From: a virus
Strand: one strand, 5' to 3'
DNA: 25,951 nucleotides
IMG/VR virus record: IMGVR_UViG_3300045413_000050
Span: 1-25,951 of that record
Shown piece after piece: positions 1 to 18,621 of this stretch (within the stretch, counting starts at the first letter, position 1; each line of letters opens with the position of its first letter). Made by a program: the position numbers and the translations under genes. The notes beneath the pieces are model-generated. The model saw only the letters and a list, made by a program, of their open reading frames with translations, was not told where the DNA came from and made no database searches.

Positions 1-3000
1 CACTTAGAAGAATTAGGAACGAGGCAGTAAATATTGTTAAGATGGTATTCCAGTCCGACATATTCCAGAACAATGTATTCCAGATAAAAATTGATGAGGT
101 ATTACCATTATTAACTATGAATAGAGTTGTTTCTAAATCCGTATCTATTACTTCATCTACACTAAAGTATATTGGACTTGGAAGAATTATTAATGATTCC
201 ATTAGCATGGTAGAATCCAAGGCAAGATTGGGAACATTTAGAAAAGTATTGGTAGAATCTATCTCAGTACAGTCATTCAGAAGCAAGTTAGAACAACTGT
301 TGAAGATAGTATCAAGTATTGTCAATATTGCCAAGGCTGAGAACTATGTAAGAGGAAGACAAAAGGTTGTAAATAATATAGTAACAATCAACAGGTATGG
401 AGTATTCCAAAACATATTCCAATCTAATGTATTTCAAACCATTCAGAATGAGATAGTAGTGTTGATAAGATTGGGTAGGATTATTAATAATACAATTAAC
501 GTGCCAAGTACAATTAGACGATTGGGCGTATTCAGACGAATTAAGAATGAGGTGGTATCAATTATGCACTCTCATAGAACATTAATGACAATATTAAAAG
601 TGGTAACTTACTATGAACAATTAGTGGGTGTAAAGATAAGATCACTCGTAATGAAGCGTGTGTATGGTGAAAACATATCCATACAATCATTCAGAAGTAA
701 ACTTGAAATACTTAGAAGAGTGATTAATGACAGTATCAGTGTTGCAGAGAATAAGATCAAATACTCTGTATTGGTGAGACCGTTAATTGAAAATATCAAC
801 TTATCTCAAACACAGAGAAACCTGCTTGGATTTAAAAAGATAGTTAATGAATCACTATCCATTGTAGATTCTTATATAAAATATGAGGTATTGCAGAGAC
901 TGGTAAATGAAACAATTAGTATTGATGAATCATTTAGAAAGTCATGGATTAGGATATTCAGTGATATTCTTAACATTATAGATAGTAGAGTGAGATATGG
1001 TATATTTAGGCGTATTATTAACAATGATGTATCCATACAGTCATTTAGAAGTAAACTGGAGATAATCAGACGTGTAATTAATGAGTCTATTAGTATGACA
1101 GAATCCAAATTCAGATCACTCATTATGTCTAGAATACAAACTAATTCAATCAATATGGTAGATAGTAGAATTAAATATCAAATATTGAACCGTATAATAA
1201 GCAAATTCATACAAATAGAATCTACACATATAAGACGAAATACATTGAAAAGAATTATTACAGAAGTGGAAAATATAGGATTAAGAATATTCCAATCCGA
1301 TGTATTCCAGAATAACGTGTTTGCAGTATCAGAAGTAATACGATTCCTAATATTGAGAAGGATGATATTTAACAACGTTAGTATGGGTGAGAGTTTGAGA
1401 AAATCATGGGCTAGGGTATTCAGTGATACAATTAATATTGTGGATGGTAGGGTAAGATTAGGCGTACTTAAACGTATTATTGGTGAGGATGTATCAATAC
1501 AATCCTTTAGAAACAAGTTACAGATACTACGTAGGATAGTTAATGAAGGAATAAATATTGCTGAATCATTCAGAAAGTCATGGATTAGGGTATTTGGGGA
1601 AGGTATCAATATTGTAGATGATAGAGTTCCACGTCTATCTCTAAAACGTGTAATAAACAAATCTGTTGATATATTTGATTCAAGAGTGAAATTGGGATAC
1701 TTTAGAAGAATCATCACCAATTATGTCAATATGGACAGTACAATATACAGACTTGGTGTATTGAGAAGGGTGTTTGGTGAGAGTATATCTATAGAATCCA
1801 ACTATAGAAAATACCAATCATTGATGAGGGTATTAGTTAAATTTGTAGAATTGGTTGATTCACGTATCCCACGCCTATCCATTACTAGGACTATTAGCCG
1901 TATAGTAAACATATCCCACTCACATACCGTAAGACTATCATTAACTAGAGTATTACAGGAGAGTGTATCTATACAGTCATTCAGAAGTAAGCTGGAAGTA
2001 ATAAGGCGTATAATCAGTGAGGGTATGAACGTTACTGAATCATTCAGAAAGTCATGGACTAGAATATTTACAGAGTTTGTACAGATTAACCTAGCTGGTA
2101 TATTCCAAAGTATATTCCAATCCGATGTATTCCAAAAAATCTATAGAGAGACATTTGTATATCTTACAATGAAACGTGTCAGGAATGAATCAGTTGAAAT
2201 TACTGATAGTGTTAGAAAACTATCGTCATTAACAAGAGTCATAAATAAAGCTGTAAGTGTTACAGATTCATTTGTGAGAAGAATCACACTTAGACGAATC
2301 ATTAATAACACTATAAACTTGTCAGAATCATTTAGTAAGTCACAGACAATCATGAGGAGATTAATTGAGTATATGATAGTGCCATCAACACCAATAAAAT
2401 CACTAACATTAAGGCGTGTATACTCCGAGTCCATTAGTATTGTACATGGTATTAAACGAACATTAACCATACATAGATTAATCAATGAGTCGGTATCGAT
2501 ACAATCATTCAGGGGTAGATTAGAATACCTATTAAAAATCATCAATGAGGGACTAACATTGGTAGATTCACGAATATCAAAGAAGACCTTATTGAGAAGT
2601 TTGAATGAGTTCGTACAAATAGTAGATTTACAAATTAAGAGATTATCTCTAAAACGTGTAATTAATGAAGTCAGTAACATAACCTCAAATGTAATCAGAA
2701 AGTTGGTATTATTGAGAGTGATTAACAATGTAGTATCAATACAATCGTTTAGGGGTAGATTAGAATACTTACTAAAAATTATTAATGAATCAATGGAAGT
2801 AGTTGAAACCAGTATCAAATATGGTATATTTAAACGAACCATTGTGGAAGTACAGAATATAGTTCATTCATTTATATACTACTTTGTAATAGTAAAAACA
2901 GTAATTAATGGTATATCTATAAATGATAATATTGTTAGACGAATGACATTATTAAGAAGAATTAATGAGTCATTATCAATACTATCATTGTTTAGAAAAC

Positions 3001-3371
3001 ACGAATCAATACTAAGACGTGTTAGTAATTCGGTAGAGATAGGTGAATCACTTAGAAAATCATGGATTAAGGTGTTCAATGAATCTATAAATACAGTATT
3101 AATTATTAAATCATTTAAAATAATCTATATAATCATTGGTGAGTCAATATCTATTCAATCATTCAGAAATAGACGTGAAATCATATTGAGAGTGATTAAT
3201 GAGGGAGTGAGTATCGTAGAATCCTTTACTAAAATACTACTATCGGTGGTAGATGCCTTTTCACCAAAGACCAAGTTTGGTAAAGTTACACGTTCTGTAA
3301 AAGTACATGGTACGTCAAAACGTGTTAAACTTTATAAAGACGACAGGAATATAAAAGGTGAAAGCGAATGA
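1..3371 (+). CDS. giant basic 20-residue-repeat protein, 5' partial (tail fibre/adhesin-like)
   Basis: The reading frame is already open at base 3 and reads LRRIRNEAVNIVK before the first ATG at 42. That segment fits the internal repeat, so the gene begins upstream of the window and is 5'-truncated here. The visible 1,122 residues are almost entirely degenerate 20-residue units with consensus near R-R-V-I-N-E-S-I-S-I-x-E-S-x-R-x, then hydrophobics; units can be followed in register, for example from 2660 to 2840. A sub-motif SIQSFRSKLE recurs eight times and ESFRKSWIR about five times. Four units are replaced by FQ-rich segments such as VFQSDIFQNNVFQ. The last 40 residues are non-repetitive and basic. 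No signal peptide or membrane segment is seen in the visible part. The gene overlaps the next one by 4 bp (ATGA), as in a virion structural operon. Alternating hydrophobics suggest a beta-solenoid or fibre. Function is inferred; a host-like surface or adhesion protein is the alternative. Confidence 0.75.
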   Translation, partial: LRRIRNEAVNIVKMVFQSDIFQNNVFQIKIDEVLPLLTMNRVVSKSVSITSSTLKYIGLGRIINDSISMVESKARLGTFRKVLVESISVQSFRSKLEQLLKIVSSIVNIAKAENYVRGRQKVVNNIVTINRYGVFQNIFQSNVFQTIQNEIVVLIRLGRIINNTINVPSTIRRLGVFRRIKNEVVSIMHSHRTLMTILKVVTYYEQLVGVKIRSLVMKRVYGENISIQSFRSKLEILRRVINDSISVAENKIKYSVLVRPLIENINLSQTQRNLLGFKKIVNESLSIVDSYIKYEVLQRLVNETISIDESFRKSWIRIFSDILNIIDSRVRYGIFRRIINNDVSIQSFRSKLEIIRRVINESISMTESKFRSLIMSRIQTNSINMVDSRIKYQILNRIISKFIQIESTHIRRNTLKRIITEVENIGLRIFQSDVFQNNVFAVSEVIRFLILRRMIFNNVSMGESLRKSWARVFSDTINIVDGRVRLGVLKRIIGEDVSIQSFRNKLQILRRIVNEGINIAESFRKSWIRVFGEGINIVDDRVPRLSLKRVINKSVDIFDSRVKLGYFRRIITNYVNMDSTIYRLGVLRRVFGESISIESNYRKYQSLMRVLVKFVELVDSRIPRLSITRTISRIVNISHSHTVRLSLTRVLQESVSIQSFRSKLEVIRRIISEGMNVTESFRKSWTRIFTEFVQINLAGIFQSIFQSDVFQKIYRETFVYLTMKRVRNESVEITDSVRKLSSLTRVINKAVSVTDSFVRRITLRRIINNTINLSESFSKSQTIMRRLIEYMIVPSTPIKSLTLRRVYSESISIVHGIKRTLTIHRLINESVSIQSFRGRLEYLLKIINEGLTLVDSRISKKTLLRSLNEFVQIVDLQIKRLSLKRVINEVSNITSNVIRKLVLLRVINNVVSIQSFRGRLEYLLKIINESMEVVETSIKYGIFKRTIVEVQNIVHSFIYYFVIVKTVINGISINDNIVRRMTLLRRINESLSILSLFRKHESILRRVSNSVEIGESLRKSWIKVFNESINTVLIIKSFKIIYIIIGESISIQSFRNRREIILRVINEGVSIVESFTKILLSVVDAFSPKTKFGKVTRSVKVHGTSKRVKLYKDDRNIKGESE
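3..3230 (+). repeat. about fifty degenerate 60-bp (20-aa) in-frame repeats
   Basis: Conserved R-x-I-N-E and S-I-S-I positions recur every 20 codons along the whole stretch. The eight better-conserved SIQSFR sub-repeats start near 262, 676, 1030, 1492, 1966, 2493, 2735 and 3145. Their irregular spacing suggests duplication of blocks followed by divergence. Confidence 0.85.
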
Positions 3372-11512: not shown

Positions 11513-11517
11513 TAACG

Positions 11518-11526
11518 TTTATATTA
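11518..11526 (+). promoter_or_regulatory. TATA box of the 11549 gene
   Basis: TTTATATTA begins 31 nt before ATG 11549. The surrounding AACGTTTATATTA is identical to the box of the putative RNA at 17801. Confidence 0.65.
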
Positions 11527-11548: not shown

Positions 11549-11881
11549 ATGCGTGTAAGTGATGTATTAGACATTGAAACCTCACATGGTAATTCTACTC
11601 CACTAAAGGTTGGGGAAAAAATAACCATTCAAGGATTTAAAGTAAAGCATGTTGATGGTGTAGGTTCAGATGTCGCAGAAATAAAAACTACCAATGGCAT
11701 GAGACACTCTTTTGGTAAAACCATAGTTGGTCAGGCAAAGAGTGAATATTGGCAGGAAGTAGTTAAAAAGTGTTTAGAAAAGGATGCGAGTGACGGACTA
11801 GATTGTTGGGTTGTTGAGAAAGAAGCCGAAGGCACTCATAGATCAATGTTAAGTTTGTCAATGTTTCCACCTAAACAATAA
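11549..11881 (+). CDS. hypothetical protein, OB-fold-like candidate
   Basis: The 110-aa product has a beta-rich first half (GEKITIQGFKVKHVDGVGSDVAEIKTTNGMRHSFGK in pieces, about 22-58), a helix (SEYWQEVVKKCLE) and a closing strand CWVVEKEA. The run from KVGEKITIQGFKV to an ATTGMRHSFGK-like turn resembles small single-strand DNA-binding or OB-type proteins of viruses, but the match is loose. It is a monocistronic leaderless gene followed by a T8 run. Confidence 0.5.
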   Translation: MRVSDVLDIETSHGNSTPLKVGEKITIQGFKVKHVDGVGSDVAEIKTTNGMRHSFGKTIVGQAKSEYWQEVVKKCLEKDASDGLDCWVVEKEAEGTHRSMLSLSMFPPKQ

Positions 11882-14681: not shown

Positions 14682-16651
14682 GAACCCACTCTGCAATCGT
14701 CGATATGTTTGTAAATTCAAATGGAACTGGTATTTTTCAACAGAAAAAGTATGTTGATATAATAGACAGATTACATCCAAACAGCGTATTCACTGTAAGT
14801 TGTCTGGATGACAAGATATACGAGATAGTATATGACATGATACCATCACTTGTAACAAGTGTAATGAAGGAGGCGGTTATCAGGGTATTGGCTGATAGAT
14901 TTGGAAGTCAGATGGATGTGAATTCCGTCTACAAGAATCTTACTATTAGAGTTGTTACTGATACATTGGTAAGTATGCATGATTTAAATGCAAGAGATCA
15001 TGAGAATACGTTAGTTATGTTCGATTGTGAAGTTATTGCTATAGAAAGGGAAAAAACATATGTAAAAAAGGCAGATGCATATTGCCCACTGTGTGGGTTT
15101 GATTATAGTATTACAGTCAATGATGATAGAAAGATAGAGGTTGTAACGTGCTCAAAAACCACATGTCATAGGGCTAAACTAGTATTGAAGAAACAATCAC
15201 TGCTAACTGATAACATTCAAACTATCTACTTTCAAGAGCCAATGCAATTATCTAGAAATAATTCGCCCGTAATACTTAAGGGATTATTAATAGGTAATCT
15301 GTGTGGGAAATTATACATAGGGCAGAAAAAACGCATAGTCGGCATATTCAAATCCGATATTGATTTGAAAACAAATGTTAATGATATAATAATTGAAGTC
15401 ATATCTGAACAGGATAGAGAGGAAAAACAAGTAGTTACATTAACTGATGAGCAGATTAAGAATTATGCTTTGGAAGCTAAGGATGAGGTAAAATTCGTTG
15501 AAAAATTGACTAACAGTTTCGCACCATTCATTATAGGATATCATGATATCAAGTTATCACTACTACTTATGCTAGTTGGTGGTAACTCTACAATAAAACG
15601 TGAGGATATTAACGTATTATTGGTAGGTGACCCAAGTATGGCAAAGTCAGAACTCTTAAAATTCGCACACAGTATAACTCCCAAGTCAATGTACACCAGT
15701 GGAAAAGGTTCATCGGCAGCTGGTCTAACGATAGGTCTTGTAAAGATGGAGAATGGTAACTTTGTGGCTCAGGCTGGCGTTCTTCCACTCTGTAATGGAA
15801 GTTTTGCCTTTATAGATGAGTTCGATAAAATGTCAACCGAGGATAGGAGTTCTTTGCATGAGGCGATGGAACAGAGAACTGTAAGTATTGCAAAGGCTGG
15901 ATTTAAAATGACATTACCAGCAAAGACACCAATATTGGCAGCCGCAAATCCAAAGTATGGTAAGTATGATATTGACCAAACATTATTAGATAATATAGAC
16001 ATACCTCCACCATTAATTAGTCGATTTGATCTAATATGGCTCATTAGGGATATTATTAATAAGGACAATGATTTACAAAAAGCGAAATTCATACTTGATA
16101 CATTTACTGGTACAATTGTAAATAATAATAACATGATGAGTTCAGTAGAGTTATCATCATACCTTAGTTATGTTAGAACATTATCCGTAATAATATCAGA
16201 AGATACCAAGCGTGAACTTATTGAGATATATAGTAAGATGAGAGACTTGTCTGCAACTGGAATATTTGTGGGCACTAGACAATTAGAGGCATTAGTTAGA
16301 TTAACTATGGCTCATGCCAAGTTATTACAGAAACCCATAACTGATTTAAACGATGTCAAGTGTGTAAAGAATATAATAGATAACATGTTCAAACAGTTTA
16401 ATATTAATACTAATGAACCATACTCACAAGATATGGTTGTGATTACGAGGAAGCAAACTAAGGAACACACTGCCGATACTGCGTGGAATTCATGTAAGGG
16501 GTATAATGGTGAGGTAAAATATTCTGACTTTATCAAAAAATTGATAGAGAGTGGCAAGTTTGACAGGGATAGTGCAGCCGAATACTTTACAAAGATGGAA
16601 AGAGAGTGCATAGTAAAACATTTAGGAGATAATATATATGTCAAAATCTAA
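14675..16651 (+). CDS. mcm: MCM replicative DNA helicase
   Basis: The 658-aa protein is a full minichromosome-maintenance helicase, the archaeal and eukaryotic replicative motor. The N-terminal part holds a zinc site (C137-P-L-C140 and C159-x4-C164) and OB-fold strands. The AAA+ core has Walker A G318-D-P-S-M-A-K-S325, Walker B FAFIDEFDK (377-385), sensor 1 N425 in AAANP and the arginine finger R450 in PPPLISRFD. A C-terminal winged-helix-like region (about 590-655) closes it. Length is normal, so the virus or element probably forms its own MCM hexamer instead of borrowing the host's. It is translated between the 104-aa gene and RadA with overlaps on both sides. Confidence 0.95.
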   Translation: MLRTHSAIVDMFVNSNGTGIFQQKKYVDIIDRLHPNSVFTVSCLDDKIYEIVYDMIPSLVTSVMKEAVIRVLADRFGSQMDVNSVYKNLTIRVVTDTLVSMHDLNARDHENTLVMFDCEVIAIEREKTYVKKADAYCPLCGFDYSITVNDDRKIEVVTCSKTTCHRAKLVLKKQSLLTDNIQTIYFQEPMQLSRNNSPVILKGLLIGNLCGKLYIGQKKRIVGIFKSDIDLKTNVNDIIIEVISEQDREEKQVVTLTDEQIKNYALEAKDEVKFVEKLTNSFAPFIIGYHDIKLSLLLMLVGGNSTIKREDINVLLVGDPSMAKSELLKFAHSITPKSMYTSGKGSSAAGLTIGLVKMENGNFVAQAGVLPLCNGSFAFIDEFDKMSTEDRSSLHEAMEQRTVSIAKAGFKMTLPAKTPILAAANPKYGKYDIDQTLLDNIDIPPPLISRFDLIWLIRDIINKDNDLQKAKFILDTFTGTIVNNNNMMSSVELSSYLSYVRTLSVIISEDTKRELIEIYSKMRDLSATGIFVGTRQLEALVRLTMAHAKLLQKPITDLNDVKCVKNIIDNMFKQFNINTNEPYSQDMVVITRKQTKEHTADTAWNSCKGYNGEVKYSDFIKKLIESGKFDRDSAAEYFTKMERECIVKHLGDNIYVKI

Positions 16652-17690
16652 AAAGGCTAATATGGAAGATGATTCTATAGAAGATGTCTTGGAAGAAACA
16701 GCCGTTGAACCAACAATGAATAAAGTGGGAGAAGTAGATTTATCAATTACACAAATAAAGGGTATAGGTGAAAAGACTTCTGAAAAACTGAATAATTTTG
16801 GCGTAATATCATTGTATGATATTTGTGTTCGTGGTGCTAAGGAAATCAGTGAAATTACTGGGGTCGACAAGTCAACCGCAAGTAATTGGGTATTTAAATC
16901 ACAAAAGATATTGGAAGATAACAACCTTGTAAGACCTACAGACATGACTACTAAGGATTTACTCACCTATCATTCAAATTTACCCAGATTGAAAACCCAT
17001 TGTACCGAGATAGATAACCTTTTTGGCGGGGGGTTAGTACCAGAATCAGTATATGAGATTTATGGTGAATTTGGGAGTGGTAAAACCCAGTTCTGCCTTT
17101 CTCTAACTGCTGAATGTTTGGCAAAAGATGAAAAGATTATTTGGATTGACTGTGAAGATACATTCAGACCCAACAGATTGGTAGAAATAATGGTGGCTAG
17201 AGGACTTGTACCAGAAGCCAGTGTTGCCATAGATAAACTTGATAATATCAAGTATTTCCATTGTCCTACGACGGAACAAATGCTGGGTGTAGTAAACTCT
17301 CTAAGTAAGATGTTATTAGAATTTAGACCTAGGTTGGTAGTATTGGATGGTGCTATAGGTCAGTTTAGGGAAGAGTATTTGGGTAGGGGCACTTTATCAG
17401 AGAGACAAAATGAGATTGCTAGACTTATGACCCACATAAAAAACATATCATACTACTTTAGATGTACCGTTCTATTCACCAATCAAGTTCAATCAGACCC
17501 AAGTGTGATGTTTGGTGACCCAATCAAGCCAATAGGTGGTAACGTGGTGGCTCATGCCTCAACATACAGAATCTATTTTAAGAAGTCAGGGAAAAACAGG
17601 TTAGCTAAAATGATAGACTCACCCGAACATAAAAATAGAGAAGCAAGTTATATCTTGAATGAAAAAGGTATAGACAACGTTGAATTATAA
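16638..17690 (+). CDS. radA: RadA/Rad51-family recombinase
   Basis: The 350-aa protein has an N-terminal acidic region and a helix-hairpin-helix domain (ITQIKGIGEKTSEKLNNFG, about 37-55). The RecA core follows, with Walker A G143-E-F-G-S-G-K-T150, TFRPNR (175-180), Walker B L233-V-V-L-D237, a GRGTLSERQ segment (249-257), TNQVQ (281-285) and KPIGGNVVAHAST (297-309). RadA forms filaments on single-stranded DNA and drives strand exchange. Residue 238 after the Walker B Asp is Gly where Ser is usual, a small deviation. A GGAGAT ribosome site precedes the ATG, which overlaps the MCM end by 14 bp, so both are expressed together. Confidence 0.95.
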   Translation: MSKSKKANMEDDSIEDVLEETAVEPTMNKVGEVDLSITQIKGIGEKTSEKLNNFGVISLYDICVRGAKEISEITGVDKSTASNWVFKSQKILEDNNLVRPTDMTTKDLLTYHSNLPRLKTHCTEIDNLFGGGLVPESVYEIYGEFGSGKTQFCLSLTAECLAKDEKIIWIDCEDTFRPNRLVEIMVARGLVPEASVAIDKLDNIKYFHCPTTEQMLGVVNSLSKMLLEFRPRLVVLDGAIGQFREEYLGRGTLSERQNEIARLMTHIKNISYYFRCTVLFTNQVQSDPSVMFGDPIKPIGGNVVAHASTYRIYFKKSGKNRLAKMIDSPEHKNREASYILNEKGIDNVEL

Positions 17691-17766: not shown

Positions 17767-17771
17767 TAACG

Positions 17772-17780
17772 TTTATATTA
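17772..17780 (+). promoter_or_regulatory. TATA box without an ORF downstream
   Basis: TTTATATTA in the context AACGTTTATATTA, identical to the promoter of the 11549 gene. By the same spacing, transcription should begin near 17803, where no start codon gives more than a few residues. Confidence 0.6.
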
Positions 17781-17800
17781 CCGTATAACGTAATACCGTT

Positions 17801-17864
17801 TGGGGGCTAGAACCTGATTGAGAGGTCAGGCAAAGGTTAAATGTTCCTTTCGTTGATGCCCTCA
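17801..17864 (+). ncRNA. putative structured RNA with three helices
   Basis: A closing helix TGGGGGC (17801-17807) pairs with GCCCTCA (17858-17864), seven pairs including one G-U. Inside it are hairpin CCTGA/TCAGG (17813-17830) and hairpin AAAGG/CCTTT (17832-17850). The predicted transcription start falls at the first base of the outer helix. No tRNA T-arm is present, and no ORF. It overlaps the stop codon of the opposing HNH gene. It could be a viral small RNA, a decoy or an untranslated leader; the class is not recognised. Confidence 0.45.
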
Positions 17865-18182
17865 TTTACTCTCTTTAACTACTTTAATCAACCTATCAAG
17901 TGTTTCAGGCTTGAACATTTTTAATACTTCTACTGTCTTATGATGCTTTTTACAAAGAAGTGTGAATCTATTAGGGTCTTTCCTAATTATTGGTAGGACA
18001 TATTCATTATAAGCATACGTATCTGCAAAATCGGAATATATCTTATCACCGTTAATATATCTCTTATGATGAAACGTAAAGTATTTACCAAACTTTCTAT
18101 GACAGACATAGCATTTTAAATCAAACTGTGGTAGTGCAGCAACATCATGTTTTAACTTTTCTACTATCTCTTTTCTACCCAC
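17862..18182 (-). CDS. HNH endonuclease-like protein
   Basis: The 106-aa product has C24-Y-V-C27, H38-H39 in FTFHHKRY, and a late L-L-C77-K-K-H80-H81. This matches the Cys-Cys/HH/Cys-His pattern of HNH (beta-beta-alpha metal) nucleases, which nick or cut DNA. A longer open frame continues to 18416, but that part is antisense to the divergent gene. GTG 18182 lies 28 nt from TAATATATTT and is chosen. It could be a homing-type nuclease or a virus-encoded packaging or restriction nuclease; target unknown. Confidence 0.75.
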   Translation of the reverse strand: MGRKEIVEKLKHDVAALPQFDLKCYVCHRKFGKYFTFHHKRYINGDKIYSDFADTYAYNEYVLPIIRKDPNRFTLLCKKHHKTVEVLKMFKPETLDRLIKVVKESK

Positions 18183-18219
18183 AAATAAGTTTATATCTGT
18201 AAATATATTAGTTTTATTG
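18183..18219. promoter_or_regulatory. 37-bp divergent double promoter
   Basis: Plus TTTATATC (from 18190) is 30 nt before ATG 18220. Minus TAATATATTT (from 18210) is 28 nt before GTG 18182. Length and geometry match the spacer at 11254-11290. Confidence 0.65.
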
Positions 18220-18621
18220 ATGAGAAAGGATAAAAACGGTAACATTATCGGGTATGGTGAGGATTCTGCCTTAGAGATTCTTATACAATTATTCCCCAAT
18301 AGGTCAATATCTCGCCAAGTACCCCTAGCTAATTTGTTGGCAGAGGATTGGGTAAGTGACTTGTCAGAAAAACAACAGAAGGAAACCATTGACCTCGTAT
18401 TATTTGGTACTCCCAATATAGCTGTAAGAATACAGGATGCACATCACAGAGGTAAGATTACAACCATGCGTGACACAGTTCAAAGAAAGACTTTGGAGTG
18501 GAATGGTGTAGTAGTAGTAGACCTATTAGATATAGAGTGTCATGAGTTAATGAAGGAGAGAGTTAATAAGAAAAGTATTAGTGAAGTTCTAAGAGCCTTT
18601 GAAAGGAACGGAATTACCTAA
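18220..18621 (+). CDS. PD-(D/E)XK-like (VSR/DUF559 type) protein, altered active site
   Basis: The 133-aa protein has the order of the VSR/DUF559 nucleases: E19-x-L-x-Q-L-F-P with a later RQVPL, D58 in IDLVLFG, then IAVRIQDAHHR (67-77), R84-D85 with QRKTLEWNGVVVVDL, and ECHELMKE. In active relatives the core reads like I-E-I-D-G-x-x-H; here Arg and Gln replace the expected acidic residues (R70, Q72). It may therefore be inactive, use D73, or be a DNA-binding derivative. ATG 18220 fits the TATA spacing; TTG 18217 directly precedes it. Pairing with a divergent HNH gene suggests a DNA-processing role. Confidence 0.45.
   Translation: MRKDKNGNIIGYGEDSALEILIQLFPNRSISRQVPLANLLAEDWVSDLSEKQQKETIDLVLFGTPNIAVRIQDAHHRGKITTMRDTVQRKTLEWNGVVVVDLLDIECHELMKERVNKKSISEVLRAFERNGIT

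Follow-up and report, generated by a model that had tools for sequence, protein, structure and literature searches.

To our knowledge, only a small number of structured RNAs have been described from ammonia-oxidising archaea and the viruses that infect them. Among described structured RNAs, purine-type riboswitch aptamers form a three-way junction with conserved junction bases, and the put RNAs of phage HK022 are short structured RNAs near the transcript start of viral operons that are associated with processive transcription. The c4 antisense RNA and similar phage RNAs act in trans. The c4 RNA and its counterparts have been listed (PMC2864571), and the haloviruses HF1 and HF2 carry a hammerhead 13 nt upstream of the helicase start (PMC3088659).

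The RNA motif described here was identified in a viral sequence of 25,951 nucleotides, the whole of which is referred to as the window. Its points of likeness to the HF1/HF2 hammerheads are a compact three-way junction, a conserved core, occurrence in archaeal tailed viruses and a position just upstream of a replication gene. However, the core sequences differ, and the new RNA has a conserved promoter on its 5' side, free-standing cellular copies and no Rfam match. Like the put RNAs it lies near the transcript start of viral operons, with two copies in one virus, but its structure and domain of life are different and it is also found in chromosomes without a downstream gene. With the c4-type RNAs it has in common that it is small and structured, occurs both in viruses and in the genomes of cells, and is likely to act in trans; sequence and structure, however, are unrelated. 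The three-way junction with conserved junction bases recalls the purine-type aptamers, although the conserved bases are not the same, a loop-loop contact is not supported overall, and there is no consistent downstream metabolic gene.

The RNA motif in the window

The motif lies between radA and a gene on the opposite strand, as a first-pass annotation made from the sequence had placed it. The features of the locus are:

16638..17690, + strand: radA (Rad51 family), upstream of the RNA; Pfam PF08423, E 7e-56; the same neighbour in about 20 relatives
17768..17780, + strand: promoter-like box AACGTTTATATTA; the exact 13-mer also at 11514-11526
17772-17779, + strand: TATA element TTTATATT, inside the promoter-like box
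17801..17864, + strand: structured RNA, the window member of a three-armed family; match to the R1 covariance model
17801..17807, + strand: P1 closing helix, 5' strand UGGGGGC; minimum free energy (MFE) fold, P1 covarying across homologs
17808..17811, + strand: junction J1/2, UAGA; no variation among viruses, in cells mostly UA[GCU]A (alignments A6 and A8)
17813..17830, + strand: P2 hairpin CCUGAUU-GAGA-GGUCAGG; MFE fold and comparison in A6
17832..17850, + strand: P3 hairpin AAAGG-UUAAAUGUU-CCUUU; MFE fold, P3 pairs covarying in homologs
17850..17857, + strand: junction J3/1, UCGUUGAU, its first base also in the fifth P3 pair; viral consensus [GU]CAUUGAU (A6)
17858..17864, + strand: P1 closing helix, 3' strand GCCCUCA; its final 3 nt form the antisense gene's stop codon
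17862..18182, - strand: HNH-like antisense gene with a GTG start; CxxC, HH and CxxHH motifs, comparison with relatives
18217..18621, + strand: DUF2726-like ORF, first sense ORF downstream of the RNA; PF10881, E 3e-4, under the curated cut-off

The MFE fold of 17801-17864 consists of the 7-bp closing helix and two hairpins, which confirms the 64-nt three-helix segment seen in the first-pass annotation. Both hairpins had been read as 5 bp; this is correct for the second, whereas the first extends to 7 bp with a GAGA tetraloop, and only its lower five pairs had been seen. This GNRA-type tetraloop replaces the AUAA/AAAA internal loop that is typical of P2 in the RNA family. No ORF was found within the segment, again as annotated, and the predicted overlap at its end was borne out, the final TCA (17862-17864) being the antisense gene's TGA stop codon as it appears on the + strand. 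The assignment of that gene to the HNH type holds by motif, but neither Pfam nor PHROGs gave a confident match for 17862-18182. ARAGORN identified no tRNA or tmRNA gene in the window, and a blastn comparison of the RNA region with known phages returned no match.

The folding energy of 17801-17864 is ordinary (z -1.39 to -1.70; 13-20 of 200 shuffles fold equally well) and TATA-like 8-mers are common in this AT-rich DNA. The single sequence is insufficient to decide the claim of a promoted, structured RNA.

Homologs in related viruses

With the RadA of the window as query, 34 relatives were identified in IMG/VR. Many of these carry the element GGCUAGA ... [GU]CAUUGAUGCC directly after radA, with a covarying closing helix, and pattern scans found further copies at other places. 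A covariance model (R1) seeded with 11 relatives, the window being excluded, matches positions 17800-17865 of the window (31.9 bits; E 7.5e-5 for 350 kb searched). This is the only significant match in the window, the next best scoring 13.6 bits; other relatives outside the seed score 33-52 bits. A second model (R2), seeded with 31 viral copies, splits the virus records into those at or above 43 bits and those at or below 16 bits, many of the scored records being members of its seed. In all, some 30 related tailed viruses of archaea carry a member of the family, with the RNA after radA in about 20 related contigs and before other genes in about ten more. Record-level searches located two copies at two places in one virus (G030) and a copy away from radA in another (G003).

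Covariation and an Rfam search were among the checks proposed in the first-pass annotation. The former is present (see below), but Rfam 15 gave no family at the RNA, either with the gathering score in the window or with E-value thresholds for one viral and several cellular copies. A literature search of incomplete coverage found no earlier report of such an RNA. The RNA of the window is very probably real and common to viruses and cells. It is a new family of a known general kind, without a match in Rfam 15, and would be categorically new if it proved to have a novel role in catalysis or in an RNP.

The commonest viral gene order is MCM, radA, RNA, nuclease-like ORF and DUF2726 ORF, the last of these being conserved as the second ORF 3' of the RNA. 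The ORF that directly follows the RNA appears nuclease-like on reading its sequence, with no Pfam or PHROGs match. A same-strand ORF starts within 130 nt downstream of 27 of the 31 viral copies, at 9-95 nt (median 34 nt among copies with an ORF in range). At L316, L323, L331, L388 and L389 the RNA instead precedes a large ORF of the head region, which comes after a terminase-like gene and is a portal by position only. Other copies precede a tail-like ORF (L349), follow a 99-aa ORF (L307) or are flanked by opposite-strand genes (L060). A riboswitch dedicated to one gene was considered and rejected because the viral contexts vary and cellular copies occur without a downstream ORF.

The nuclease-like ORF is absent from the window, where the antisense HNH-like gene occupies its place, and the next sense ORF is 351 nt from the RNA with the antisense gene between them. 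The description of the promoter as an orphan thus holds in the window; in most relatives, however, the RNA directly precedes an ORF. Several viruses that lack the RNA have a sense-strand HNH-like gene in the slot after radA.

HNH-like genes follow radA in L009, L010, L012, L023, L028 and L029. Gene and RNA mostly alternate in this slot, and only the window has both, with its HNH-like gene inverted and the stop inside the RNA. The arrangement is reminiscent of free-standing homing genes that lie next to their targets. At L331, L342, L362 and L378 the region upstream of the RNA is unlike that of the close relative L323, with an inverted repeat, ACTTGAGAG...CTCTCAAGT, where L323 has a TATA-like box, as if by insertion.

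Promoter position

The window contains exactly two copies of the box AACGTTTATATTA, at 17768-17780 and 11514-11526, compared with 0.01 expected from shuffles, and the annotated identity with the promoter of the ORF at 11549 is exact over the 13-mer. The TTTATATT element of the first box begins 29 nt upstream of the P1 start at 17801, and that of the second 31 nt upstream of the ATG at 11549, like a leaderless archaeal promoter. The degenerate TTTATATW alone shows no enrichment in the window (15 vs 13.5 expected).

Most viral copies have a TATA-like box about 29 nt upstream of P1. For the interval -36 to -26, the best TATA score averaged over the 25 distinct sequences upstream of viral copies is 5.3, compared with 1.57 after shuffling (n=300, sd 0.54, maximum 2.95), and scores outside this interval are lower. 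Given the fixed distance of the box in viruses, transcription is expected to begin on the first base of P1 or close to it. The promoter signal is weak in cellular copies (2.6 vs 1.14 shuffled, sd 0.47). That the box is a promoter aimed at a three-helix RNA, as first annotated, is a prediction which the homologs, their strong covariation and the conserved spacing across viruses support.

Structure conservation

In the alignment of 31 viral sequences, 94.9% of pair cells hold standard pairs compared with 65.9% in shuffled alignments, 152 cells are changed on both sides compared with 43.7, and the covariation score is 0.649 compared with 0.165; fitting the alignments to the covariance model favours such counts, but the effects are large nonetheless. 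None of 500 shuffles matches the alignment in paired cells and covariation score, with 94-95% of cells paired. Compensatory variation is found in all four helices, and the signal is lost when the 3' partners are slid. With cellular copies added the score is 0.734 compared with 0.187 (41 sequences, including 13 cellular copies, a few near-identical viral sequences being left out). Most copies have C-G as the innermost pair of P1; six of the 41, all cellular, have A-U there. There are 35 G-U cells and only 10 A-C cells, consistent with an RNA read from this strand.

The near-invariant bases are UAGA, the AUAA and AAAA strands of the P2 internal loop, and UUGAU before the 3' strand of P1, which is replaced by UUGAC or similar in some cellular copies. 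The window copy retains P1, UAGA, P3 and UUGAU (17853-17857) but has a GAGA-capped stem in place of the P2 internal loop. Having lost this loop it is a shortened, divergent member of the family, to which it still belongs on the strength of its model score and its remaining features. The AUAA/AAAA loop is a common and not a defining feature, and it is altered in a few further viral copies as well.

A pseudoknot between the P2 and P3 loops is attractive by eye but not supported by a permutation comparison, which gave p 0.49 overall, the two loops of one RNA pairing no more strongly than loops exchanged between copies. The pairing is strong only in L005/L006, and for the short types p is 0.14. 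A terminal U-tract was rejected: runs of at least five T occur in only 16% of viral copies and not in the cellular ones. The 10 nt around the P1 end are T-rich in viruses (0.52).

Cellular copies and host

The RNA is also present in some chromosomes of Nitrososphaeria type (soil-type ammonia-oxidising archaea), with 1 to 17 copies per genome. An assembly of Candidatus Nitrosocosmicus contains two copies at 33-35 bits. In families around related genomes, a third model (R3) identified copies in 14 of 40 genomes, with 17 in G363 and 6 in G139. Beyond the Nitrosocosmicus record the family names of the cellular genomes are those that we infer. An exact pattern gave 104 matches in genome contigs, mostly without the rest of the structure and chance-like, one of which led to the Nitrosocosmicus genome with its two other, model-found copies; a looser viral pattern was swamped by chance among the matches listed.

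Cellular copies are intergenic, with cellular neighbours such as genes for a proteasome subunit and threonine dehydratase (recognised from sequence), and no viral hallmark genes were seen near them. An ORF lies within 130 nt downstream in only six of 42 cellular copies, which argues that a cis-linked gene is not needed. No match was obtained in 39 genomes of another archaeal class, represented by a Euryarchaeota bin, and none in two further families within the Nitrososphaeria set, of 11 and 4 genomes, with a limited number of candidates scored per genome; absence from these groups is therefore soft evidence.

Some loci are shared between genomes: L427/L459/L478 represent one near a threonine-dehydratase-like gene, and L451-L454/L442 another after a proteasome-beta-like gene. 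Part of the family thus looks stably inherited. The copies in G363 include L430, L446, L456, L460, L462, L464, L466 and L468-L477. Many have a nearly identical terminal stem with different P2 and P3 loops, which suggests recent spread.

The RadA of the window is 37-40% identical to the best copies in Nitrososphaeria-type genomes and 30-34% identical to those elsewhere. Since these genomes are the closest among those tested, the host is likely in the same class.

Possible function of the RNA

The reading we prefer, at a probability of about one half, is a family of free-standing small structured RNA genes that act through a bound partner and are carried by viruses. It is favoured because a role common to viruses and cells cannot need a downstream gene. 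Its strongest rival, given that viral copies sit before ORFs, is a cis-acting 5' leader whose fold opens viral operon transcripts and controls what follows, through processive transcription like that of the HK022 put RNAs, stability of the 5' end, or translation of a nuclease or head gene downstream. The short distance to a same-strand ORF in 27 of 31 viral copies fits such a leader, as do an RNA that begins where transcription should begin, two copies at two places in one virus, and contexts that include both a nuclease operon and a head-gene operon. However, the downstream gene is not consistent, most cellular copies have no downstream ORF at all, the L060 copy is flanked by genes on the other strand, and in the window an antisense gene separates the RNA from a distant sense ORF. 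On balance we consider a leader unlikely, though worth keeping in view.

Nearly invariant junction bases with tolerant loops, together with scattered and multiple copies, leave room, as the other main rival, for a putative class of self-cleaving ribozyme comparable to the hammerhead or hatchet, with variable helices, intergenic copies and a presence in viruses. The haloviruses HF1 and HF2 set a precedent for hammerheads in archaeal viruses (PMC3088659). A hammerhead itself was rejected, as the junction strands are UAGA and [GU]CAUUGAU and not the core CUGAUGA and GAAA, and no Rfam ribozyme matches. Moreover, a conserved promoter just before P1 suits an RNA gene better than an embedded ribozyme. 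Self-cleavage seems improbable. The 17 copies in one genome, many with nearly the same terminal repeat (GTAATAGAGGA/TCCTCTATTAC), could alternatively mark a mobile or DNA-level repeat, a MITE-like hairpin and not a functional RNA. This is very improbable: P1 pairing is kept while its sequence differs between genomes, the interior is conserved, several copies are at shared loci, and the excess of G-U over A-C points to selection on RNA. An MFE z-score of only about -1.5 and the lack of TTTATATW enrichment would be expected of a chance structure beside a chance TATA box, but the independent model match and the covariation in dozens of relatives already contradict this, and we give it almost no credence.

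If the motif is a small RNA gene, transcription from the TATA promoter would begin at about 17801, the first base of P1, and the transcript would fold as a three-way junction of P1, P2 and P3 with nearly invariant unpaired junction bases. Because the peripheral loops are free to vary, the junction would be the working part, probably binding a protein or another partner in trans. As the family occurs in both Nitrososphaeria-type chromosomes and tailed viruses, the viral RNA probably enters, imitates or competes with an RNA pathway of the host. Computation shows the family, its structure, its promoter position and its distribution; transcription, a partner, action in trans and mimicry of the host are what we infer. 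More tentatively, the family may represent a new functional class of archaeal RNA, either ribozymes or RNP RNA genes, with many copies in Nitrososphaeria and captured by their tailed viruses, which would use it to subvert or escape some process of the host. Being strongly conserved, present in several copies and common to viruses and archaea, the RNA is a defined, synthesizable target of 65-110 nt, and may give access to the interplay of viruses and hosts in organisms on which the nitrogen cycle depends.

Two further ORFs of the window deserve mention. The ORF at 42-3371 (+), 1109 aa long and open towards the window edge, contains repeats like RVINESISI...SFRSKLE, has no PHROG match and perhaps encodes a repetitive fibre or tail protein. 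The 110-aa ORF at 11549 shares the 13-nt promoter (11514-11526) with the RNA, and the two may be expressed jointly.
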